From NCBI RefSeq assembly GCF_003725295.1, contig NZ_QICB01000001.1, positions 1 to 64,000 of the forward strand: 64,000 nt of DNA, written 5' to 3'. The stretch is from Slackia faecicanis. Lineage in GTDB: Bacteria; Actinomycetota; Coriobacteriia; Coriobacteriales; Eggerthellaceae. Of this stretch, positions 27,616-37,680 are shown piece by piece; positions within the stretch are counted from its first letter, which is position 1, and each line of letters starts with the position of its first letter. The position numbers and the translations under genes are program-made. A model generated the notes under the pieces. That model did not search any database. It was given only the letters and a program-made list of their open reading frames with translations, and was not told where the DNA came from.

Positions 27616-29454
27616 GTGGCATTTCTGTTCGGATGCGAAGGCGTCCATCTTGAATATCCGACGAAGAAGGTTCTCGACAACGTGACGCTCGGCGTGCACG
27701 AGGGCGACCGCATCGGTATCGTGGGGCAAAACGGCGACGGCAAATCGACGCTGCTCGGCGTGCTTGCGAGCACGGTGGAGCCCGAAGACGGCCTGGTGCG
27801 CCGCACGCGCGGTTTGCGCATCGGCATGCTCGCCCAGCGCGATTCGCTCGATGACGAGGCTACGGTGGAGCGCGCCGTGGTGGGCGACACGCCCGAATAC
27901 GTATGGGCGGGAGACGCGCGTGTGCGCGAGGTGATCGCGGCGCTGATCGCCGACATCGATTGGCAGGCGCAGGTGGGCACGCTTTCGGGCGGCCAGCGCC
28001 GCCGCGTCGACCTGACGCGTCTTCTGATCGGTGACTGGGACGTTCTGATGCTCGACGAGCCGACGAACCATTTGGACATGCACGCCATCGCTTGGCTGGC
28101 ATCGTATCTGAACAGGCGCTGGCCCAAGGGAACGGGCGCGCTGCTCACGGTGACTCACGACCGTTGGTTTCTCGACGAGGTCGCCAATGCCATGTGGGAA
28201 GTGCATGACGGCGCGGTCGACCCGTTCGAGGGCGGGTATTCGGCATACGTTCTGCAGCGCGTCGAGCGTGATCGCGTGGCGCAGGTGACCGAGCAGAAGC
28301 GCAAGAATCTCATGCGCAAGGAACTCGCATGGCTTTCCCGCGGCGCCCGCGCGCGTTCGACGAAGCCGAAGTTCCATATGGCGCTTGCCCAGGAGCTTAT
28401 CGCGGGTGAACCTCCCGTGCGTAACACGCTCGAGCTTCGCGCAATGGCCATGCAGCGCTTGGGCAAGCAGTGCGTGTCGCTGACGCGCGTGACGGAGCGC
28501 TTCGGAGACAAGACGGTGCTCGACAACGTGGACTGGACCGTGGGTCCCGGCGACCGCGTGGGCATCCTGGGTGAGAACGGCGCGGGTAAGACTACGCTCC
28601 TCAAAATCGTGCAGGGCGCCATCAAGCCGGACTCGGGATTCGTGAAAATCGGCAAGACGGTGAAATTCGCCGTGCTGTCTCAGCGCTTGGACGAACTTGA
28701 GGAAATGAGCAAATACCGTGTGACCGAGGTGCTGTCGCGTTATCGCACCCGCGTCGTGGTCGACGGGAAAGAGACCACGCCCGCCAAGCTGCTCGAGCGT
28801 CTCGGCTTTTCTTCGAGGCATCTCTACACCCGAATCTGCGATTTGTCAGGCGGTCAGAAGCGCAGGCTCCAGCTGCTGCTGATCTTGCTCGACGAGCCCA
28901 ACGTGTTGATTCTCGACGAGCCTGGAAACGATCTCGATACCGATATGCTCGCCGTTTTGGAAGACTTGCTGGACACCTGGGCGGGAACGCTTGTCATGGT
29001 GACGCATGACCGCTATTTGATGGAGCGCGTGACCGACGACCAATACGCGCTCATCGACGGCAAGGTTCGCCATTGCCCGCGCGGCGTGGACGAATATCTC
29101 GAGCTTTTGGCCGAACGTGATGCCGCATCGGGTTCGGGCCGCACGTTCGCCGATGTGACGGGCCGGGGCGGCGCGGCTGATGCGCCGCAGACGGCGGCCC
29201 CGGCGGCCGGTACCTCTCCGATGCTGAGCAATGCCGAGCTGCGCGATATGAAAAAACGTCTGGCCAGCCTGAACAAGAAGATGGGCACCGCCGCGAAAAG
29301 GGTAGAGGACAAACAGGCCGAGATGGATGCGGCCGACCCCACCGATTTCGTGCGTCTGGGCGAGCTTCAGGCGGAATTGGATGCTTTGCGTGCGGCGAAA
29401 GAAGAGCTCGAGGACGAATGGCTCGAACTAGCTGACGCGTTGAGCGTGGAGTAG
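27616..29454 (+). CDS. ABC-F ATPase, Uup-like
   Basis: The 612-residue cytoplasmic protein has two ABC domains: Walker A GQNGDGKST with LSGGQRRRVDL, then GENGAGKTTLL with LSGGQKRRLQL, and EPTNHLD/EPGNDLD Walker B regions. A linker and a C-terminal Lys/Glu-rich coiled coil (about residues 535-612) resemble Uup. ABC-F proteins act on the ribosome rather than in transport. Walker B of the second domain reads EPGNDLD instead of EPTNHLD. GTG start. A terminator follows. Confidence 0.92.
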   Translation: MAFLFGCEGVHLEYPTKKVLDNVTLGVHEGDRIGIVGQNGDGKSTLLGVLASTVEPEDGLVRRTRGLRIGMLAQRDSLDDEATVERAVVGDTPEYVWAGDARVREVIAALIADIDWQAQVGTLSGGQRRRVDLTRLLIGDWDVLMLDEPTNHLDMHAIAWLASYLNRRWPKGTGALLTVTHDRWFLDEVANAMWEVHDGAVDPFEGGYSAYVLQRVERDRVAQVTEQKRKNLMRKELAWLSRGARARSTKPKFHMALAQELIAGEPPVRNTLELRAMAMQRLGKQCVSLTRVTERFGDKTVLDNVDWTVGPGDRVGILGENGAGKTTLLKIVQGAIKPDSGFVKIGKTVKFAVLSQRLDELEEMSKYRVTEVLSRYRTRVVVDGKETTPAKLLERLGFSSRHLYTRICDLSGGQKRRLQLLLILLDEPNVLILDEPGNDLDTDMLAVLEDLLDTWAGTLVMVTHDRYLMERVTDDQYALIDGKVRHCPRGVDEYLELLAERDAASGSGRTFADVTGRGGAADAPQTAAPAAGTSPMLSNAELRDMKKRLASLNKKMGTAAKRVEDKQAEMDAADPTDFVRLGELQAELDALRAAKEELEDEWLELADALSVE

Positions 29455-29568: not shown

Positions 29569-31068
29569 TCAGGAGAGCGTGCAGGTTGAAAGGCCGTTTG
29601 CACGCGTGATGTGCAGCCGCCTTGTGCAGACCGCTTCAAGGAAACGTTCGTCGTGGCTTACGGCGACGAGCGCGCCGGGAAATGCCGCTAGCGCTTGCTC
29701 GAGCGCCTCGACGGAGTGGATGTCGAGGTGGTTGGTCGGCTCGTCCGCCATGATAAGGGCGGCGCCGTCGGCGATGCCGCATGCGATGGCGAGCTTACGC
29801 AGCTCTCCCGGGCTGGTTCGGCCGCCTTCGAGGATGCGGTCGGGATTGGAATCGAGGCGGGCGACGATCGAAAGGATGCGACCCTTCGTTTCAGGGGATT
29901 CGTCGCGCACGCGTTGCACGAGTCGTCGCGCTTCATCGGGCGTGTATTCCTGGGGAATGAATAGGATGCGGATATCGGGGTCCATGTGATCGAGCAGATG
30001 CCTTACTAGCGTCGTTTTACCGCTTCCGTTGTTTCCGCTGATTCCCAGATGGTCGGTATTGCCCACGTAGAGCCGGGGCACACGAAGCAACCCCTGCGGT
30101 CCGCATGCGATGGGTGCTTCTTCCACGTGCATCAGGGTCTTTCGGGGGTGGGGCTGCATGTCGAAGGCGATCGATCCGTCATAGCGCTTTTCCGTGCGCG
30201 TGCGGGCGATGTCGGCCCAGGCGCGCTCAAGCCGCGCATTCATGCCGCTTGCGAGCGCGCCGGCCTTTCCGTCCTGGCCGGTATAGATCGCCAGCTTGCG
30301 TTTTGCCCGGCCGTCGGAATCGTGCTTGTCGAGCATGCGGGCGCTGCGTCGTTTCGCTGTCTTGGATGCTTCTTCTGCGCGGCGGATATACTCGTGCTGT
30401 AGCGCCGCGGCGGTTCTTTTCGCTTGTACGTTGGCACGCTGCGAGCAAAGCAGCTCTCGTTTGCGCTGTTCGGAAGCATTGCCATAGTCTCCTGGCCTCA
30501 TGACGAAGCGGCCGTTTTCAAAGCAGAGACACTGTTTTGGTAAAGAATCGATCAAAAGGCGGTCGTGCGAAATGACGATGCCGATGCCCGAAAATGCCCG
30601 CAGCGACTCAAGGATGCATGCACGGCATGCTGCGTCGACGTGGTTGGTCGGCTCGTCGAGGACGAGCAGTTCGGGCTCACTCCAAAGCGCGACGGCGATT
30701 TGGAGCTTTTTCTGCTCGCCGCCGCTTAGGGATTCGAAACGCCAAGGGGCGTCGTCAGGAATTTCGAGAGCGGCTCGCAGGCGTGTCGCTTCGGGGGAGA
30801 AGTCGCATGCGAAATCGTAGAGCAGCGCGGGCTCCATGCGCGGGTCTTGTTCGCAATACGCAAAGGAAAGGCGTGCGGATACGTTGCCGTCGTCGGGTTT
30901 TTCCAGACCGCAGGCGATACGGGCGAGCGTGGTCTTGCCGCACCCGTTGTCGCCGACAAGCGCGGTCCAGCCTTGCGCGAAGGTAGCGGACACGTCGTGC
31001 AGCACGGGGTCGGCGGATTGCGGGTGGGTGTATGCGATATGGGAGAGCGTGAGGATGGTTCGTGCCAT
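29569..31068 (-). CDS. ABC-F ATPase resembling ribosome-protection (antibiotic resistance) types
   Basis: The 499-residue protein has two ABC domains: GDNGCGKTTL with LSGGEQKKLQIAV and EPTNHVD, then GNNGSGKTTL with SPGELRKLAIA and EPTNHLD. The second signature reads SPGE instead of LSGGE. A basic, helical linker of about 100 residues joins them, including KRRSARMLDKHDSD, long as in Lsa/Vga-type proteins that displace antibiotics from the ribosome. I chose the ATG after GGAGG. Resistance function is inference; a housekeeping role is possible. Confidence 0.85.
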   Translation of the reverse strand: MARTILTLSHIAYTHPQSADPVLHDVSATFAQGWTALVGDNGCGKTTLARIACGLEKPDDGNVSARLSFAYCEQDPRMEPALLYDFACDFSPEATRLRAALEIPDDAPWRFESLSGGEQKKLQIAVALWSEPELLVLDEPTNHVDAACRACILESLRAFSGIGIVISHDRLLIDSLPKQCLCFENGRFVMRPGDYGNASEQRKRELLCSQRANVQAKRTAAALQHEYIRRAEEASKTAKRRSARMLDKHDSDGRAKRKLAIYTGQDGKAGALASGMNARLERAWADIARTRTEKRYDGSIAFDMQPHPRKTLMHVEEAPIACGPQGLLRVPRLYVGNTDHLGISGNNGSGKTTLVRHLLDHMDPDIRILFIPQEYTPDEARRLVQRVRDESPETKGRILSIVARLDSNPDRILEGGRTSPGELRKLAIACGIADGAALIMADEPTNHLDIHSVEALEQALAAFPGALVAVSHDERFLEAVCTRRLHITRANGLSTCTLS

Positions 31069-31464
31069 AGGGCGGCCTCCTGTCGGAAAGGTCGCGCATG
31101 GGCAAGCGTGGTTTTTCTCGGGGCGAAAACGCTTTCGCTCATGGGGCGAAGCTATGAGAAAAAGCGAGATGGAGCCGTTGGGAAAACGAACGTATAAGAC
31201 GATGCTGCCCGATATGCGCGAAGGCTGCGCCGCGAAAGCGGCCGGATGCGAATGGGGCACAAAACTGTGCATCGTCTAGAACTTCATGTATGCAGGGCTC
31301 CTTAGAAGCGGATGCGCACGGCATCCTCGGTGAATTCATTCCGGCGAGTATACCGGCGTCCGACGGCGCCGGCAAGGATGCCTTCCTCTAGACCGACGGG
31401 AGCATGCTCGCTAGAATTGCCCGCATCGCACGCTTCGTGCGGTATAGAACAAGGGGGGGTAAAG
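31069..31464. other. Gap between the ABC-F gene and the solo LuxR gene
   Basis: No convincing gene is visible. A GCCGC-GAAA-GCGGC hairpin lies at 31229-31242. A TATAGA at 31443-31448 could be a -10 box for the LuxR gene, with TTGCCC 20 bp upstream (spacing too long). Minus-strand leaders of antibiotic-type ABC-F genes sometimes hold attenuating peptides, but I found none I can defend. Confidence 0.4.
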
Positions 31465-31689
31465 GTGATTCTGACTATCGACCAGGAGAGTCCTCTGACC
31501 GTGCGCGAGCAGCAGATTCTATACCATATCGCCCGTGGCCTTTCGAACAGGGGCATAGCGGCCCGTCTTGCGCTTTCGGAACAGACGGTGAAAGTCCATC
31601 TTGCTAATATGATTGCGAAAACGGGCTGCGACAATCGTGCAGCCCTTGTCGCGTACGGCTTCGAGACGGGGGTGCTTAAGGCGCGATGA
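31465..31689 (+). CDS. Solo LuxR-type HTH protein
   Basis: The 74-residue protein is little more than a GerE/LuxR DNA-binding domain: SPLTVREQQILYHIARGLSN, ARLALSEQTVKVHLANMIAK and RAALVAYGFETGVL. No receiver or sensor domain precedes it. The GTG start follows a GGGGGGG ribosome site 5 bases away, and upstream in-frame sequence does not read as protein. It could bind DNA constitutively or partner with a separate sensor. It lies 130 bases before the HemX-like gene, whose expression it may control. Confidence 0.82.
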   Translation: MILTIDQESPLTVREQQILYHIARGLSNRGIAARLALSEQTVKVHLANMIAKTGCDNRAALVAYGFETGVLKAR

Positions 31690-31819: not shown

Positions 31820-32656
31820 ATGATCGCATTCATAGCCGCCGCGGCGAGCATCACGCTTTACGGCTGCGCGGCCAGCCTCTGTGCGTTTCGCGCCGCCCGT
31901 AAGGCCGACCGCTTTTCCGTCGCTTCCCGCCTTTTCTTCCTTGCGGCTTTCCTGCTCCATTCCGCCTCGATCGGAATGGAGTCGGTCAGCACGTCGGGAA
32001 CCGTTCTCGTGGGCCCGAACGTGCTCATGCTCACGTCATGGGTTCTGTCCGTGGCGTCGTTGTTCGTGGCGGTTTTCGCCAAGAGGCCGTACGGCTATCT
32101 CGTCGTAGCCGCTTCGACGGTCGCCTTGCTCATGTTGATCGCCCAGATGAGCTCGCTGTTTTCCGGGTCGGCTTTCTATACGAACAGCACGTACGAACAG
32201 TGGCCCGCCCTCGTTCTCCATATCCTTTCCTTCCTTGCGGCCATGGCGTGTTTCGTCATCAGCGCCGCGGCATCCGCCATGCAGCTTTATCAGCGCCGCC
32301 TGATGAAGGACCGCAGTGCGCGGTTGTTCAATCTCACCATGCCTGCGCTCGACACGCTCAATGCCGTCGCCCGCCGTGCGGGGCTTGTCGGCCTTCCGTT
32401 GTTCACGCTGGGGATGCTGCTCGGGTTCGGTAGATATGCGATCCGCCACGGCGTTATGGTGGCCGCAGGCTGTCCTGCCGCATTCTCGTATCTGGGTCCT
32501 CGCATCGGACTTTCGATCGTCGTGTGGTCGGCCTACGCCGTGTTCGTCGGTGTTTCCTACCTCGCGCCGTCTTTGGCCGGATCGAAGACGCGGTCGGTCC
32601 TTTCCATCTGCGGTTTCTCGGCAGCTCTTGTGCTGATGTTCGTCGCGGCGGTTTAG
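31820..32656 (+). CDS. HemX/CcsA-like cytochrome-assembly membrane protein
   Basis: The 278-residue protein has about eight membrane segments. The stretch WPALVLHILSFLAAMACFVI with a following charged helix (QLYQRRLMKDR) aligns with the HemX/CcsA pattern of a conserved His in a membrane helix. LVGLPLFTLGMLLGFGRY matches the later HemX segment. In Bacillus, HemX lies beside hemA and lowers glutamyl-tRNA reductase levels; CcsA relatives handle heme for cytochrome c. The stop is 2 bases before the GluTR-like gene, implying coupled translation. Start follows GAAGGAGAG. Confidence 0.75.
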   Translation: MIAFIAAAASITLYGCAASLCAFRAARKADRFSVASRLFFLAAFLLHSASIGMESVSTSGTVLVGPNVLMLTSWVLSVASLFVAVFAKRPYGYLVVAASTVALLMLIAQMSSLFSGSAFYTNSTYEQWPALVLHILSFLAAMACFVISAAASAMQLYQRRLMKDRSARLFNLTMPALDTLNAVARRAGLVGLPLFTLGMLLGFGRYAIRHGVMVAAGCPAAFSYLGPRIGLSIVVWSAYAVFVGVSYLAPSLAGSKTRSVLSICGFSAALVLMFVAAV

Positions 32657-32658
32657 AG

Positions 32659-33612
32659 ATGGAGCTCGTCGTTGCGGGAATCGATCCCGCTCATGCGCCC
32701 GATGACGTGCTCACATCGGTCGAAAGCGCGCGTCGAGGGGACCTTCTTGCCGCGATAGCGGCGCTTCCCGATGCCGAAGAGGCCGCCATCGCGGGCCAAG
32801 GCGAACGCTACGAGGCGTACGCGGTGCTTCGCGAAGGCTTCGATAGCTTCGGGGTTTTCGGCAATCTGTTCTCGTCCCATTTGGGCGTTCCGCCTTCTCG
32901 TATCGCGGGCTGCTTTTACGCTGCGGAAGGAGTCGACGCCGCGATGCATGCGATGCATGTCGCATGCGGCTCCGATTCGTTCGCGCGGGGCAGGGATGTT
33001 CCAGCGCCGCGCTTTATATGCGAATCCGCATGCGATTCCGGCAAGCCCGCCGAAGCGATCGAGCGGCTCTTTCTTGAGGCGAGCGAGGCGGCTTCTTCAT
33101 TCGGCCTGCGCCGCGACGAGGACGCCCAATCGCGCGCCGAAGCCGACATGGCGGTCGAGCTTGCCCGATTCGTCTTCGATGACCTAGGGAAATGCAGCGT
33201 CATGGTGGAATCTTCGAGCCCGCAGGCTTCTGTTTTCCAGGCGGCGTTTTCCGCTGCCGGGGCATCGGTCTTCGACGCCTGCGAAGAAGACGGGCTGATG
33301 GAGTCCATGGCGAAGGCCGACGTGTCGCTCCTCTGGCGCGCGCAGGCGTTCGACGCTGCCGCTGCGAAGAGGCTTCGACGTGTGCGTCGGGGACGCTTGA
33401 GCGTGGTGTTCGACCTTGCGGGCGAACCCGACGGACGCGGCCGCGTGGACGTAGACGACGTGTTCGTCTACGGGCGTAGCGATCTTCAGGAGGTTGCGGC
33501 CGCGTGCGAGCGCGAAAGCGTCGGCGATGCCGAGCGCGCGCGGGCGATCAGGGAGCGTGCGCGCGCTTATATGAGATGGTTCGATAGCCGGGACGTTTCG
33601 GCTTCGGGATAG
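32659..33612 (+). CDS. Degenerate glutamyl-tRNA reductase-like protein
   Basis: The 317-residue protein aligns by eye with HemA along its length. It has the opening LVVAGIDPAHAP (HemA: VVGxDhxxAP), VACGSDSF (family: VAxGLDSM), AVELARFVF, then VFVYGRSDLQEV (family: VFLYDIDDL). Yet the catalytic STCNRTE motif reads AGQGERYE, putting Gly48 at the active-site Cys, and the NADPH-binding GAGKMG reads ESSSPQ (184-189). It should therefore be catalytically dead. Coupling to the HemX-like gene and the nearby AhbD-like gene suggest a heme-linked regulatory or binding role. Confidence 0.68.
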   Translation: MELVVAGIDPAHAPDDVLTSVESARRGDLLAAIAALPDAEEAAIAGQGERYEAYAVLREGFDSFGVFGNLFSSHLGVPPSRIAGCFYAAEGVDAAMHAMHVACGSDSFARGRDVPAPRFICESACDSGKPAEAIERLFLEASEAASSFGLRRDEDAQSRAEADMAVELARFVFDDLGKCSVMVESSSPQASVFQAAFSAAGASVFDACEEDGLMESMAKADVSLLWRAQAFDAAAAKRLRRVRRGRLSVVFDLAGEPDGRGRVDVDDVFVYGRSDLQEVAAACERESVGDAERARAIRERARAYMRWFDSRDVSASG

Positions 33613-33746: not shown

Positions 33747-34763
33747 ATGATCGTGTCGTGGATGACGACGAACAAATGCAATTTGAAATGCGAGCACTGC
33801 TACCAGGATGCCGAGGAGGCTACGGACAAAGAGCTCGGCACCGATGAAGCGAAGAAGATGATCGACGAGATCGCACGTGTGGGCTTCAAAGTGATGATCT
33901 TCTCGGGCGGAGAGCCGTTGCTTCGCCCTGATATTTTCGACCTGGTCGCGCATGCCGCTTCGCGGGGGCTGCGTCCTGTTTTCGGAACGAACGGCACGCT
34001 GATCACGTATGAGACGGCCGCGCGTCTGAAGGAGTGCGGGGCTTGCGCCATGGGAATCTCGGTCGACAGCCTCGATCCTGCCAAGCACGACCGCTTCCGC
34101 GGGCTCGAAAACGCCTACGAGCTAACCATGCAGGGCATTGAGGCGTGCAAGAAGGCGGGGCTGGCGTTCCAGCTTCATACCACCGTCGTCGACTGGAACC
34201 GAGACGAGGTCTGCGACATCACCGACTTCGCCGAGCGTATCGGCGCCGTCGCGCACTACATCTTTTTCCTCATTCCCGTGGGCCGAGGGAAATTCATCAA
34301 GGAGACCGCGCTCGAGGTGAGGGAGAACGAAGAACTTCTGCGCGACATCATGATGAAATCGCAACAGGTTTCCATCGACGTCAAGCCCACGTGCGCCCCG
34401 CAATTCACGCGCGTCGCCAAACAGCTCGGCGTGGAGACGCGTTTTTCACGCGGATGCCTTGCCGGCTTGACGTATTGTGTCGTCGGGTCGGAGGGAATCG
34501 TTCGTCCGTGCGCGTATATGACGGAAGAGGCGGGCGATGTGCGCGCGACTCCGTTCGACGAGATTTGGAAATCGAGCCCTGTGTTCGAGAAGCTGCGCAC
34601 CGAGGCCTATTCGGGCGCTTGCGGCACGTGCGACTATCGCGACGGATGCGGCGGATGCCGCGCCCGCGCCGCGTATTACCACGAGGGCGACATCCTCGCG
34701 CAGGACGATTATTGCGCGCATGGATTGAAGCTCGACGACGAAGGGGCCGCCTCCTATGAATAA
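33747..34763 (+). CDS. ahbD: Radical SAM/SPASM enzyme, NirJ2/AhbD-like (heme synthase of the siroheme pathway)
   Basis: The 338-residue protein opens with IVSWMTTNKCNLKCEHCYQD, combining the radical-SAM CxxxCxxC (C11, C15, C18) with the SWMTTN context of NirJ/Ahb proteins. The C-terminus holds a second-cluster motif, C-x2-C-x5-C-x2-C, in GTCDYRDGCGGCRARAAYYH plus a later Cys. AhbD decarboxylates iron-coproporphyrin III to heme b. A peptide-modifying SPASM enzyme is the alternative, but no precursor peptide is seen. The ATG follows AAAAGGGGGG. Its stop overlaps an alternative start of the binding protein. Confidence 0.72.
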   Translation: MIVSWMTTNKCNLKCEHCYQDAEEATDKELGTDEAKKMIDEIARVGFKVMIFSGGEPLLRPDIFDLVAHAASRGLRPVFGTNGTLITYETAARLKECGACAMGISVDSLDPAKHDRFRGLENAYELTMQGIEACKKAGLAFQLHTTVVDWNRDEVCDITDFAERIGAVAHYIFFLIPVGRGKFIKETALEVRENEELLRDIMMKSQQVSIDVKPTCAPQFTRVAKQLGVETRFSRGCLAGLTYCVVGSEGIVRPCAYMTEEAGDVRATPFDEIWKSSPVFEKLRTEAYSGACGTCDYRDGCGGCRARAAYYHEGDILAQDDYCAHGLKLDDEGAASYE

Positions 34764-34800
34764 GAACGGCCGCATGCTCTCTATGAAAGGATCTTCCGCT

Positions 34801-35838
34801 ATGTTCGATGAAACGTATCGCAGCCGCGCGTCAGTGCGCGCAGGTCTGCTTTCCACTGCGCTCGCGCTCGCGCTTTCGGCATCGATGCTCGTAGGATGCG
34901 CCGGCGACGGCGCGTCGTCGGCAGAGGGCGAGGGGGCGTCTGCCATCGAAGCGGAACGTTCGCAGGCCTATACTTTCACTGACGATATGGGCAACGAGGT
35001 CACGGTGGAAAATCCCCAGCGCGTCGTTGCGTGCATGGGAAGCTTCGCGAACACGTGGGAGCTTGCCGGCGGCACCTTGGTCGGCGCTTCTGACGACGCT
35101 TTCACGTTCGATGCATTCGATATCGAGTCTCCCGACGTCGCGAAGGTGGGCGACTTCTCGAACATCAACCTCGAGGCGGTCATCGCCCTCGAGCCTGATT
35201 TCGTAATCATGACCTGCGGCACAGGCGGCCGCGGCGGCGATTCGAGCCAGGCCGATTTCAAGGCGGCTCTTGATGCTTCGGGCATTCCCGTGGCGTATTT
35301 CGAGGTCACGGTTTTCGAGGACTACTTGCGCATGCTGCGCGTGTTCTGCGACATCACCGGCCGCGACGACCTGTATAGCCGAAACGGCGAATCGGTGCAG
35401 CAGGCGATCGAGCAGGCGATTTCGGACATGTCCGAGGCGAGCGAGCCTTCTACGGCTTTGCTCATGACCACGTATTCGCGGGGGACTCGTGTGTTGACGT
35501 CCTCGTCGATGGCGGGCGATATGCTTGCCGATCTGGGCGTCGTCAATCTTGCCGACGAGAATCGCAGCCTTCTGTCCGACTTCAGTCTCGAGTCGGTAAT
35601 CGAGCTCGACCCCGATTACATTTTCGTGATTCCTATGGGCAACGACACCGAGGCCGCTATGCGCAATCTCGAGGCGCAGACCGCAGAAAATCCTGCATGG
35701 GCGACGCTTTCGGCAGTGCAGGAGGGTCGCTACATCATGCTCGATCCCGATTTGTTCCTGTACAAGCCCAATGCGAAATGGGCCCAGAGTTATGAGACGC
35801 TTGCGGGGCATCTCGTGTCCGGGCAGAACGAGGCGTGA
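34801..35838 (+). CDS. ABC transporter substrate-binding lipoprotein (FecB/BtuF type)
   Basis: The 345-residue protein has a lipoprotein signal ending in LVGC and then a Peripla_BP_2 domain: FTDDMGNEVTVENPQRVV, VGDFSNINLEAVIALEPDFV, and DPDYIFVIPMG. This class binds ferric siderophores, heme or cobalamin. I chose the ATG after AAAGGA; upstream in-frame ATGs exist, one overlapping the ahbD stop. It is followed by permease and ATPase genes with overlapping codons. The neighbouring heme genes make an iron or tetrapyrrole ligand likely, by inference. Confidence 0.88.
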   Translation: MFDETYRSRASVRAGLLSTALALALSASMLVGCAGDGASSAEGEGASAIEAERSQAYTFTDDMGNEVTVENPQRVVACMGSFANTWELAGGTLVGASDDAFTFDAFDIESPDVAKVGDFSNINLEAVIALEPDFVIMTCGTGGRGGDSSQADFKAALDASGIPVAYFEVTVFEDYLRMLRVFCDITGRDDLYSRNGESVQQAIEQAISDMSEASEPSTALLMTTYSRGTRVLTSSSMAGDMLADLGVVNLADENRSLLSDFSLESVIELDPDYIFVIPMGNDTEAAMRNLEAQTAENPAWATLSAVQEGRYIMLDPDLFLYKPNAKWAQSYETLAGHLVSGQNEA

Positions 35839-36866
35839 TGCGGCGCGTTCGTGAAGAATCGGGGCACGCCGCCGGGCGAGGTCGTCGGGCGGCGGCCTTC
35901 GCCATTGCCTGCGCGGCTCTTGCGGCGCTGAGCATCGCAGCTTTCTTGTGCGGAGCATCTTCTGTGAGTTTCGGCGAGCTCGCGGCATGGGTCTGCGGCG
36001 GAGAAGTGAGCGATGCCGCGAAAAGCATCTTGGTAAACGTCAGGCTTCCGCGCGTCCTGGCCGCGCTGCTTGCAGGCGCGGCCCTTGCAGTGGCGGGGGC
36101 CGTCATTCAATCGGTGCTTGACAACCCGCTCGCAAGTCCGAATGTGATCGGCGTCAACTCGGGGGCAGGGCTGTTCGTGCTCGCGGTCGCGGCGTTGTTT
36201 CCCCATGCGCCTTGGGCTGCTCCGTTCGCGGCGTTCGCCGGCGCTTTGGCTACGGCGGCCGTCATTTTCGGCATATCGCTGCATGCGGGCGCGTCGCGTC
36301 TGACCGTCGTGCTGTCGGGCATAGCGATAACCACCGTGTTCGGCGCAGGTATGAATACGGTCATGATCGTGGCGCCCGACGCCTATGTGGGCTCGTCGGT
36401 CTTTCTGACGGGCGGTCTCTCGGGCGTGCTGCTGTCGGATCTTGCATGGCCTGCGGTTCTGATTGCGGCGGGCCTTGTGGCGGCGATGTGTGGGGCGCAC
36501 CGGCTCAACGTGGTCGCGCTCGGCGACGATATGGCGCATGCGCTCGGATTGAACGTACGCGCCGTCAGGCTCGCCATGCTGGCCGTCGCGTCGTTGCTTG
36601 CCGGGGCGGCCGTGAGCTTCGCGGGCCTTCTGGGCTTCGTAGGGTTGATCGTTCCTCATATCGTGCGTTTCGCGGTCGGAAACGACAACCGCGCGGTGCT
36701 CCCTCTGTCTGCGGTAGCCGGCGCCGCGTTCGTGGTCGGCTGCGACCTCATTGCCCGTGTCGCCTTTGCGCCCTACGAGGTGCCGGTGGGCATTCTTATG
36801 GCGTTCGTCGGGGGGCCGTTTTTCATCTATCTGATTTTCAAGAACAGGAGGGGAGGCCTTGAATAG
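35838..36866 (+). CDS. FecCD-type ABC transporter permease
   Basis: The 342-residue protein has about nine to ten membrane segments and FecCD-family marks: RLPRVLAALLAGAALAVAGA, QSVLDNPLASPNVIGVNSGA and GLLGFVGLIVPHIVR. It moves iron-chelate, heme or cobalamin-type ligands with the adjacent binding protein and ATPase. The start ATG overlaps the preceding stop (GTGATG/TGA). Confidence 0.92.
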   Translation: MRRVREESGHAAGRGRRAAAFAIACAALAALSIAAFLCGASSVSFGELAAWVCGGEVSDAAKSILVNVRLPRVLAALLAGAALAVAGAVIQSVLDNPLASPNVIGVNSGAGLFVLAVAALFPHAPWAAPFAAFAGALATAAVIFGISLHAGASRLTVVLSGIAITTVFGAGMNTVMIVAPDAYVGSSVFLTGGLSGVLLSDLAWPAVLIAAGLVAAMCGAHRLNVVALGDDMAHALGLNVRAVRLAMLAVASLLAGAAVSFAGLLGFVGLIVPHIVRFAVGNDNRAVLPLSAVAGAAFVVGCDLIARVAFAPYEVPVGILMAFVGGPFFIYLIFKNRRGGLE

Positions 36867-37680
36867 AGCTGCTCGCGATTCGGCCCGTCCTTCGCTCGAA
36901 CGCGAATTCGCGCTCGAGCTGCGCGGCGTCGGCTTTTCGTACGATCGCTCCCGTCCGTTCATCGAGGATGTTTCGATCGGATTCGAACGAGGCGCGGTGA
37001 CGAGCATCGTCGGACCGAACGGCTGCGGTAAATCGACGTTGTTGAAGGTGGCGTGCGGTATCGTCCGGCCCTGCAGGGGCGATGTTTTGCTCGACGGGCG
37101 AAATGTTCGGTCGTATGCCGCCCGCGAGCGTGCCCGTCGTCTTGCGTTGCTGGCGCAGGGGCCGCGACCGCCTGCCATGACCGTCGAATCGCTCGTCGCG
37201 TGCGGGCGCTTTCCGTATTCGTCGTCTCAGGGCCGTCTTTCTCGCGCCGACCGTGCCGCCGTCGAGCATGCGATGGAGCTCGCCGATGTCGCTTGTTTGC
37301 GCTCGTGCGACCTGCGCAGGCTTTCGGGCGGTCAGCGGCAGCGCGCGTTCGTTGCCATGACGCTGGCCCAGGATGCCGACACCGTCGTGCTCGACGAGCC
37401 GACGACGTATCTCGACATCGGGGCCTGCCACGATGTGATGGGGCTCGTGCGCAGGTTGAATGAAGAATGCGGCAAGACGGTCGTCCTGGTCATTCACGAT
37501 CTCGACTTGGCGTTGCGCTATTCGGACCGTATGGCGGTCATGGACGCCGGGGCGGTCACGGCCGCAGGCACGGTGGACGAGGTCTATGCGTCGCGCGCGA
37601 TAGACGAGGCGTTCGGAGTCGACCTTCATAGGTGCGGCGTCGGCAGCGACGAGGTGTACGTCGCGCTGCCTCGCTCCTAG
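36859..37680 (+). CDS. ABC transporter ATPase (FecE/BtuD type)
   Basis: The 273-residue ATPase has Walker A GPNGCGKST, signature LSGGQRQRAF, Walker B TVVLDEPTTYLDI and the switch His in VLVIHDLDLALRYSDRM. It powers the FecCD-type importer encoded just upstream. A TTG start is inferred from the AGGGGAGG ribosome site, overlapping the permease end by 8 bases. Confidence 0.93.
   Translation: MNRAARDSARPSLEREFALELRGVGFSYDRSRPFIEDVSIGFERGAVTSIVGPNGCGKSTLLKVACGIVRPCRGDVLLDGRNVRSYAARERARRLALLAQGPRPPAMTVESLVACGRFPYSSSQGRLSRADRAAVEHAMELADVACLRSCDLRRLSGGQRQRAFVAMTLAQDADTVVLDEPTTYLDIGACHDVMGLVRRLNEECGKTVVLVIHDLDLALRYSDRMAVMDAGAVTAAGTVDEVYASRAIDEAFGVDLHRCGVGSDEVYVALPRS

Follow-up and report, generated by a model that had tools for sequence, protein, structure and literature searches.

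A HemX-linked pseudo-glutamyl-tRNA reductase in Slackia faecicanis and related Eggerthellaceae lacking HemA and HemB

HemX and heme together set the abundance of glutamyl-tRNA reductase (GluTR; HemA or GtrR) in Staphylococcus aureus and Bacillus subtilis. This control is post-transcriptional, and its mechanism was unknown to Choby et al. in 2018 (PMC5801465). The way in which HemX lowers GluTR in response to heme is difficult to dissect, since heme levels themselves change with GluTR activity. In the same study, hemX was never found without gtrR, nor without de novo heme synthesis (PMC5801465). Heme is reportedly bound by GluTR in Salmonella, S. aureus and M. tuberculosis (PMC5801465; review PMC10991733). 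Other families of the order to which Slackia faecicanis belongs carry a heme operon arranged as hemX-met8-hemA-hemC-cobA/hemD-ahbC-hemB-ahbD, with some variation. AhbD makes heme from Fe-coproporphyrin III (PMC3942049).

We analysed a window of 64,000 nucleotides from S. faecicanis, in which a HemX gene directly precedes a gene for a degenerate GluTR. The HemX gene (31820..32656, plus strand) starts with ATG after a GGAG site and encodes a membrane protein of 278 aa of the CcsA/Cytochrom_C_asm family, with hydrophobic segments spanning the entire chain (PF01578 Cytochrom_C_asm, 32.4 bits against a cut-off of 29.9). A profile HMM of this HemX family matched the HemX proteins of intact hemX-met8-hemA operons with E values from 2e-25 to 2e-43. 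Ten residues were common to all 14 HemX proteins compared (Gly52, Asn67, Leu71, Leu131, His134, Gln158, Leu180, Gly191, Gly202 and Arg228), and Asn67, His134, Gln158 and Arg228 were invariant even when canonical HemX of the order was included. A weak PF01578 match in genome G290 was rejected as a HemX; it sits in an apparent FtsX-type permease with no adjoining GluTR.

The second gene (32659..33612, plus strand, ATG start, 317 aa) begins 2 bases after the HemX stop codon (TAG, 32654-32656), as the initial annotation had noted, and the spacing was 2-4 bp wherever it was measured. The arrangement resembles that of S. aureus and B. subtilis in that a PF01578 HemX gene adjoins a GluTR homologue and the two are likely co-translated. 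It differs in that the GluTR is dead and without a dimerisation domain, the genomes are without HemA and HemB (and HemC where tested), and the unit includes a gene for a 74-aa helix-turn-helix (HTH) protein. The order of HemX followed by a HemA homologue is also that of the hemX-met8-hemA operons. In those operons, however, met8 separates hemX from an intact hemA, and downstream lie siroheme-dependent heme pathway genes.

PF05201 GlutR_N, the sole Pfam family found in the encoded protein, has a cut-off of 27 bits and scored 27.1. The NF000744 match (aa 1-109) reached 36 bits against an equivalog cut-off of 429, and that of TIGR01035 hemA (aa 23-182) 28 bits against 209.6, both far below. An AlphaFold2 model (pLDDT 82, pTM 0.57) matched the Methanopyrus kandleri GluTR structure 1gpj over residues 1-317 with a Z score of 18.9, and the three further matches with Z above 18 were Arabidopsis GluTR. 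The top unrelated chain reached Z 12.5. The rmsd to 1gpj was high (7.6 across 293 residues), which probably reflects a different domain orientation. A relative from the second genus was modelled with a pLDDT of 88 and gave the GluTR fold with Z 23.2. A chance or weak domain match was thus ruled out by the predicted fold, by the fold of the relative, and by the alignment of 12 homologues with 31 genuine HemAs from this order. Since fold, HMM and alignment agree, the observation of a dead GluTR is real, and the relationship to HemA proposed in the initial annotation extends along the whole protein.

The 12 pseudo-GluTRs in this alignment, the window copy included, came from Slackia, Adlercreutzia and a third Eggerthellaceae genus. 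Gly48 of the window protein fell in the column of the invariant HemA Cys50 (S. heliotrinireducens numbering). The catalytic Cys of the S-T-C-N-R motif was gone in all 12 (five Gly, four Ala, two Pro and one Asp in this column), and hardly any copy kept the flanking T and N. Nearly all members also had a degenerate NADPH motif (GxGxxM); in the window protein S185, S187 and Q189 replace G187, G189 and M191. The replacement of the Cys by Gly and the loss of the NADPH motif, both first read from the single sequence, were thereby borne out. The C-terminal dimerisation domain was missing from every member, with gaps in the conserved columns from HemA position 359 onward. Arg52, Glu54, Tyr56 and His97 (HemA numbering; R50, E52, Y54 and H97 of the window protein) were retained without exception, as were Asp242 and Asp278. 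His97 of the window protein lies 49 residues past Gly48, and we take it to be the catalytic-position His of GluTR from the alignment and from family knowledge (Cys50 and His99 in E. coli). Compared with GluTR of known structure (PDB 1gpj and 4n7r), the protein thus shares the predicted N-terminal and Rossmann fold and the Arg, Glu, Tyr and catalytic-position His, but has none of the Cys nucleophile, NADPH glycine motif or dimerisation domain. Its assignment as a catalytically dead pseudoenzyme of GluTR fold is well supported. A search of open-access papers turned up one protist paper and no account of a GluTR pseudoenzyme from bacteria.

In a tree with real HemAs, the pseudo-GluTRs formed one clade (support 100/99), whose placement among the HemAs is affected by long branches and by biased composition in several rows. 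The first branch was the copy of the third genus (locus L111), the most HemA-like member. It scored 75 bits for GlutR_N and 93 bits for a Shikimate_DH-type Rossmann domain, and its glycine-rich loop was partly retained, but the catalytic Cys was already absent. Between the window copy and its nearest relative, dN/dS of the pseudo-GluTR was 0.18 (95% interval 0.12-0.29); the corresponding values were 0.09 for HemX, 0.07 for NirJ2 and 0.14 for the importer permease encoded downstream. The pseudo-GluTR is therefore kept by selection, under looser constraint than its neighbours. Between genera, identity was about 28% for the pseudo-GluTR and 41% for HemX. A recently broken gene was ruled out, since relatives carry the identical losses and the gene is under purifying selection. 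The simplest history would be that the pair derived from an operon of the hemX-met8-hemA type by loss of met8 and the remaining pathway genes.

In a scan of 138 Eggerthellaceae genomes with the HemX profile, this HemX was found in 14, from three genera. Intact HemA and HemB were absent from all 14, and HemC from all ten tested; the genome of the window was among those without HemB and HemC. One of these genomes, that of A. hattorii, is a complete chromosome, so the gene absences are not due to incompleteness. The pair is therefore an exception to the published rule on the occurrence of hemX. A survey of 297 genomes of the order found low-scoring full GlutR_N copies in the genus of the window and in one other genus (g6); none of those genomes also had a high-scoring copy. 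A GTDB scan of about 85,000 genomes, in which the pattern step detects close relatives only, gave matches in Slackia (S. piriformis and MAGs) and in Adlercreutzia (A. mucosicola, A. hattorii, A. muris, A. caecimuris, A. equolifaciens and MAGs, some still named Enterorhabdus). No plasmid relatives were found.

Ferrochelatase was present in 18 of the 19 genomes tested, including that of the window, which also encodes CcmF-like and CcmC-like proteins. The use of heme is therefore very likely, and its supply must be external in some form. The ferrochelatase gene of this genome (L090, 7192-8244, minus strand; own-genome contig C5:86213-87178), kept despite the missing HemA, HemB and HemC, lies beside genes that by eye resemble larE, larB and larC of the nickel-pincer cofactor. 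The larC-like one has a long His-Asp repeat.

The unit is headed by the HTH gene (31465..31689, plus strand, GTG start), which encodes a solo GerE/LuxR-type protein of 74 aa (PF00196 GerE, 62.7 bits). In every one of the 12 loci scanned, one of them without NirJ2, its frame lay 76-241 bp before HemX and had a conserved start; in the third genus the HTH gene also precedes HemX (L111, 9172-9405). The presence of this linked gene before HemX in every locus examined is new here. Downstream of the pair, after a gap of 134 bp, follow NirJ2, a radical SAM/SPASM protein related to AhbD (33747..34763; TIGR04055, 522 bits against an equivalog cut-off of 500), and a FecCD-type importer, all on the plus strand. 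The importer consists of a substrate-binding lipoprotein (34756..35838; PF01497 Peripla_BP_2, 86 bits), a FecCD-family permease (35835..36866; PF01032, 290 bits) and a FecE/FhuC/HmuV-like ATPase (36859..37680; PF00005, 91 bits; NF008409, 236 bits). In the window these four genes overlap each other, the lipoprotein gene with nirJ2 and the permease gene with that of the lipoprotein. Similarity of the lipoprotein to IsdE and BtuF was weak; the IsdE profile, with a cut-off of 298.7 bits, gave just 60. NirJ2 shared no more than about 40% identity with the AhbD proteins of relatives, and both are encoded in some genomes.

Of 13 loci whose flanks could be read, 11 had NirJ2 and the three importer genes after the pair. 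The HTH, HemX and pseudo-GluTR genes occur without adjoining NirJ2 or importer in A. equolifaciens (L039) and the third genus (L111), and NirJ2 and the importer occur without the three-gene unit in L066-L069. These patterns indicate that the inseparable core is HTH-HemX-pseudo-GluTR. From 19 genomes we had expected NirJ2 and the importer to be a strict marker of heme-less genomes. However, the survey of 297 genomes contradicted this expectation. Some genomes that have intact HemA also carry NirJ2, which in part of them lies directly before the heme operon, and NirJ2-importer was therefore not taken as a marker of heme loss.

The initial annotation had suggested a heme-responsive sensor or scaffold. 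Its structural part, HemX coupled to a dead GluTR, was upheld, and relatives keep the pair with the same lost residues, which it had named as a finding in support. The intact hemA that it considered elsewhere in the genome was not found; in a family search of the genome, the pseudo-GluTR was the sole GluTR homologue. It therefore cannot regulate a local real GluTR, and that role was discarded. The sensor or scaffold role is plausible, and is strengthened by the linked HTH gene, the purifying selection and the published control by HemX and heme. We infer that the retained HemX-pseudo-GluTR unit probably senses or handles scavenged tetrapyrrole.

Our preferred reading, to which we assign a probability of roughly 0.4, is that a HemX-GluTR feedback pair outlived heme biosynthesis and turned into a non-catalytic control unit that senses tetrapyrrole. 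If what is regulated is GluTR itself rather than the activity of the enzyme, a catalytically dead copy could still carry the signal. HemX, the pseudo-GluTR or both would detect heme or another tetrapyrrole, and the signal would be the abundance of the pseudo-GluTR or its binding state, either of which would vary with tetrapyrrole. It would be relayed, probably, to the 74-aa HTH regulator, and the putative output would be an adjustment of tetrapyrrole uptake or use (NirJ2 and the importer, ferrochelatase, cytochrome c maturation). The Cys, the NADPH site and the dimer arm would have become dispensable, and the Arg/Glu/Tyr/His pocket and the partnership with HemX would have been retained. Against the feedback-pair reading, the dN/dS of the pseudo-GluTR lies above the 0.07-0.14 of its neighbours, as for a loosely constrained protein. 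Cys170, the reported heme ligand of Salmonella GtrR, has no apparent conserved Cys counterpart in the alignment, and in S. aureus the binding of heme by GtrR is reportedly dispensable for heme homeostasis (PMC10991733). The full three-part form of such a system, with HemX in the membrane, the GluTR-derived pseudoenzyme as signal carrier and the HTH protein as regulator, is somewhat doubtful; it would have arisen as feedback control of heme synthesis outlasted its pathway.

The chief alternative is that the pseudo-GluTR acts as a carrier when tetrapyrroles are salvaged. It would then be a cytosolic tetrapyrrole chaperone or scaffold docked on HemX, without regulation, and imported heme, coproheme or porphyrin would be passed among the FecCD importer, ferrochelatase, NirJ2 and CcmC. 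The frequent operon with NirJ2 and the importer, the retention of ferrochelatase despite absent HemB and HemC, and the membership of HemX in the CcsA/CcmC heme-handling superfamily all agree with this role. However, it leaves the HTH gene unexplained, and the separate occurrence of the unit in L039 and L111, and of NirJ2 and the importer in L066-L069, speaks against it. We consider it unlikely as a whole. A different emphasis makes HemX the working part, with the pseudo-GluTR stabilising or localising it in cytochrome c maturation, or vice versa. HemX is indeed far better conserved across genera, and the unit of the third genus comes after a CcdA-thioredoxin gene. But this genome already has CcmC and CcmF, and in Slackia and Adlercreutzia no CcdA relative lies close to the unit; we consider the proposal distinctly improbable.

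Two further explanations seemed hardly probable, to a similar degree. The pocket might perform another reaction, or sense amino-acid status through glutamate or glutamyl-tRNA, as the invariant Arg, Glu, Tyr and catalytic-position His could suggest. The glycine motif of the Rossmann domain is degenerate in nearly all members, however, and there is free variation in the residues around the lost Cys (G/A/P/D), an uncommon pattern in an active site. Alternatively, the gene might be a slowly decaying relic whose frame persists solely through translational coupling in the operon, consistent with its raised dN/dS and low intergenus identity. Against such decay, the frame was open in 13 copies from three genera, dN/dS was clearly below 1, some residues were invariant, and among the unit copies with a readable flank none was found to have dropped the gene. 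The locus offers a natural HemX-GluTR pair without catalysis or heme pathway, in which what HemX needs from GluTR (fold and pocket, not activity) may be read from conservation. It also suggests that common gut Eggerthellaceae carry a module that handles heme or porphyrin.

Some further features of these loci were observed. No Rfam RNA elements were found between 29 and 39 kb of the window; terminator-like sites were about equally frequent in shuffled sequence, and two weak promoter-like sites were seen. In the Eggerthella-like loci L091, L092 and L094, the NirJ2-importer genes lie directly 5' of a complete siroheme-dependent heme operon, with an apparent thiamine pyrophosphokinase gene between them. 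The cassette of another Slackia-group genome (L066) adjoins a hydrogenase-like operon that includes a cytochrome b subunit, and at L096 (8027-10191), from another family of the order, NirJ2 and an AhbC/NirJ1-like gene stand side by side as a pair. The CcdA-thioredoxin fusion gene of the third genus (L111, 7829-9187) ends where the three-gene unit begins; CcdA was rejected as a constant partner, since it is near the unit in that genus only. In the window, two ABC-F-like ATPase genes on opposite strands (27616-29454 and 29569-31272) lie 5' of the unit, and this gene pair is syntenic in S. piriformis (L032).
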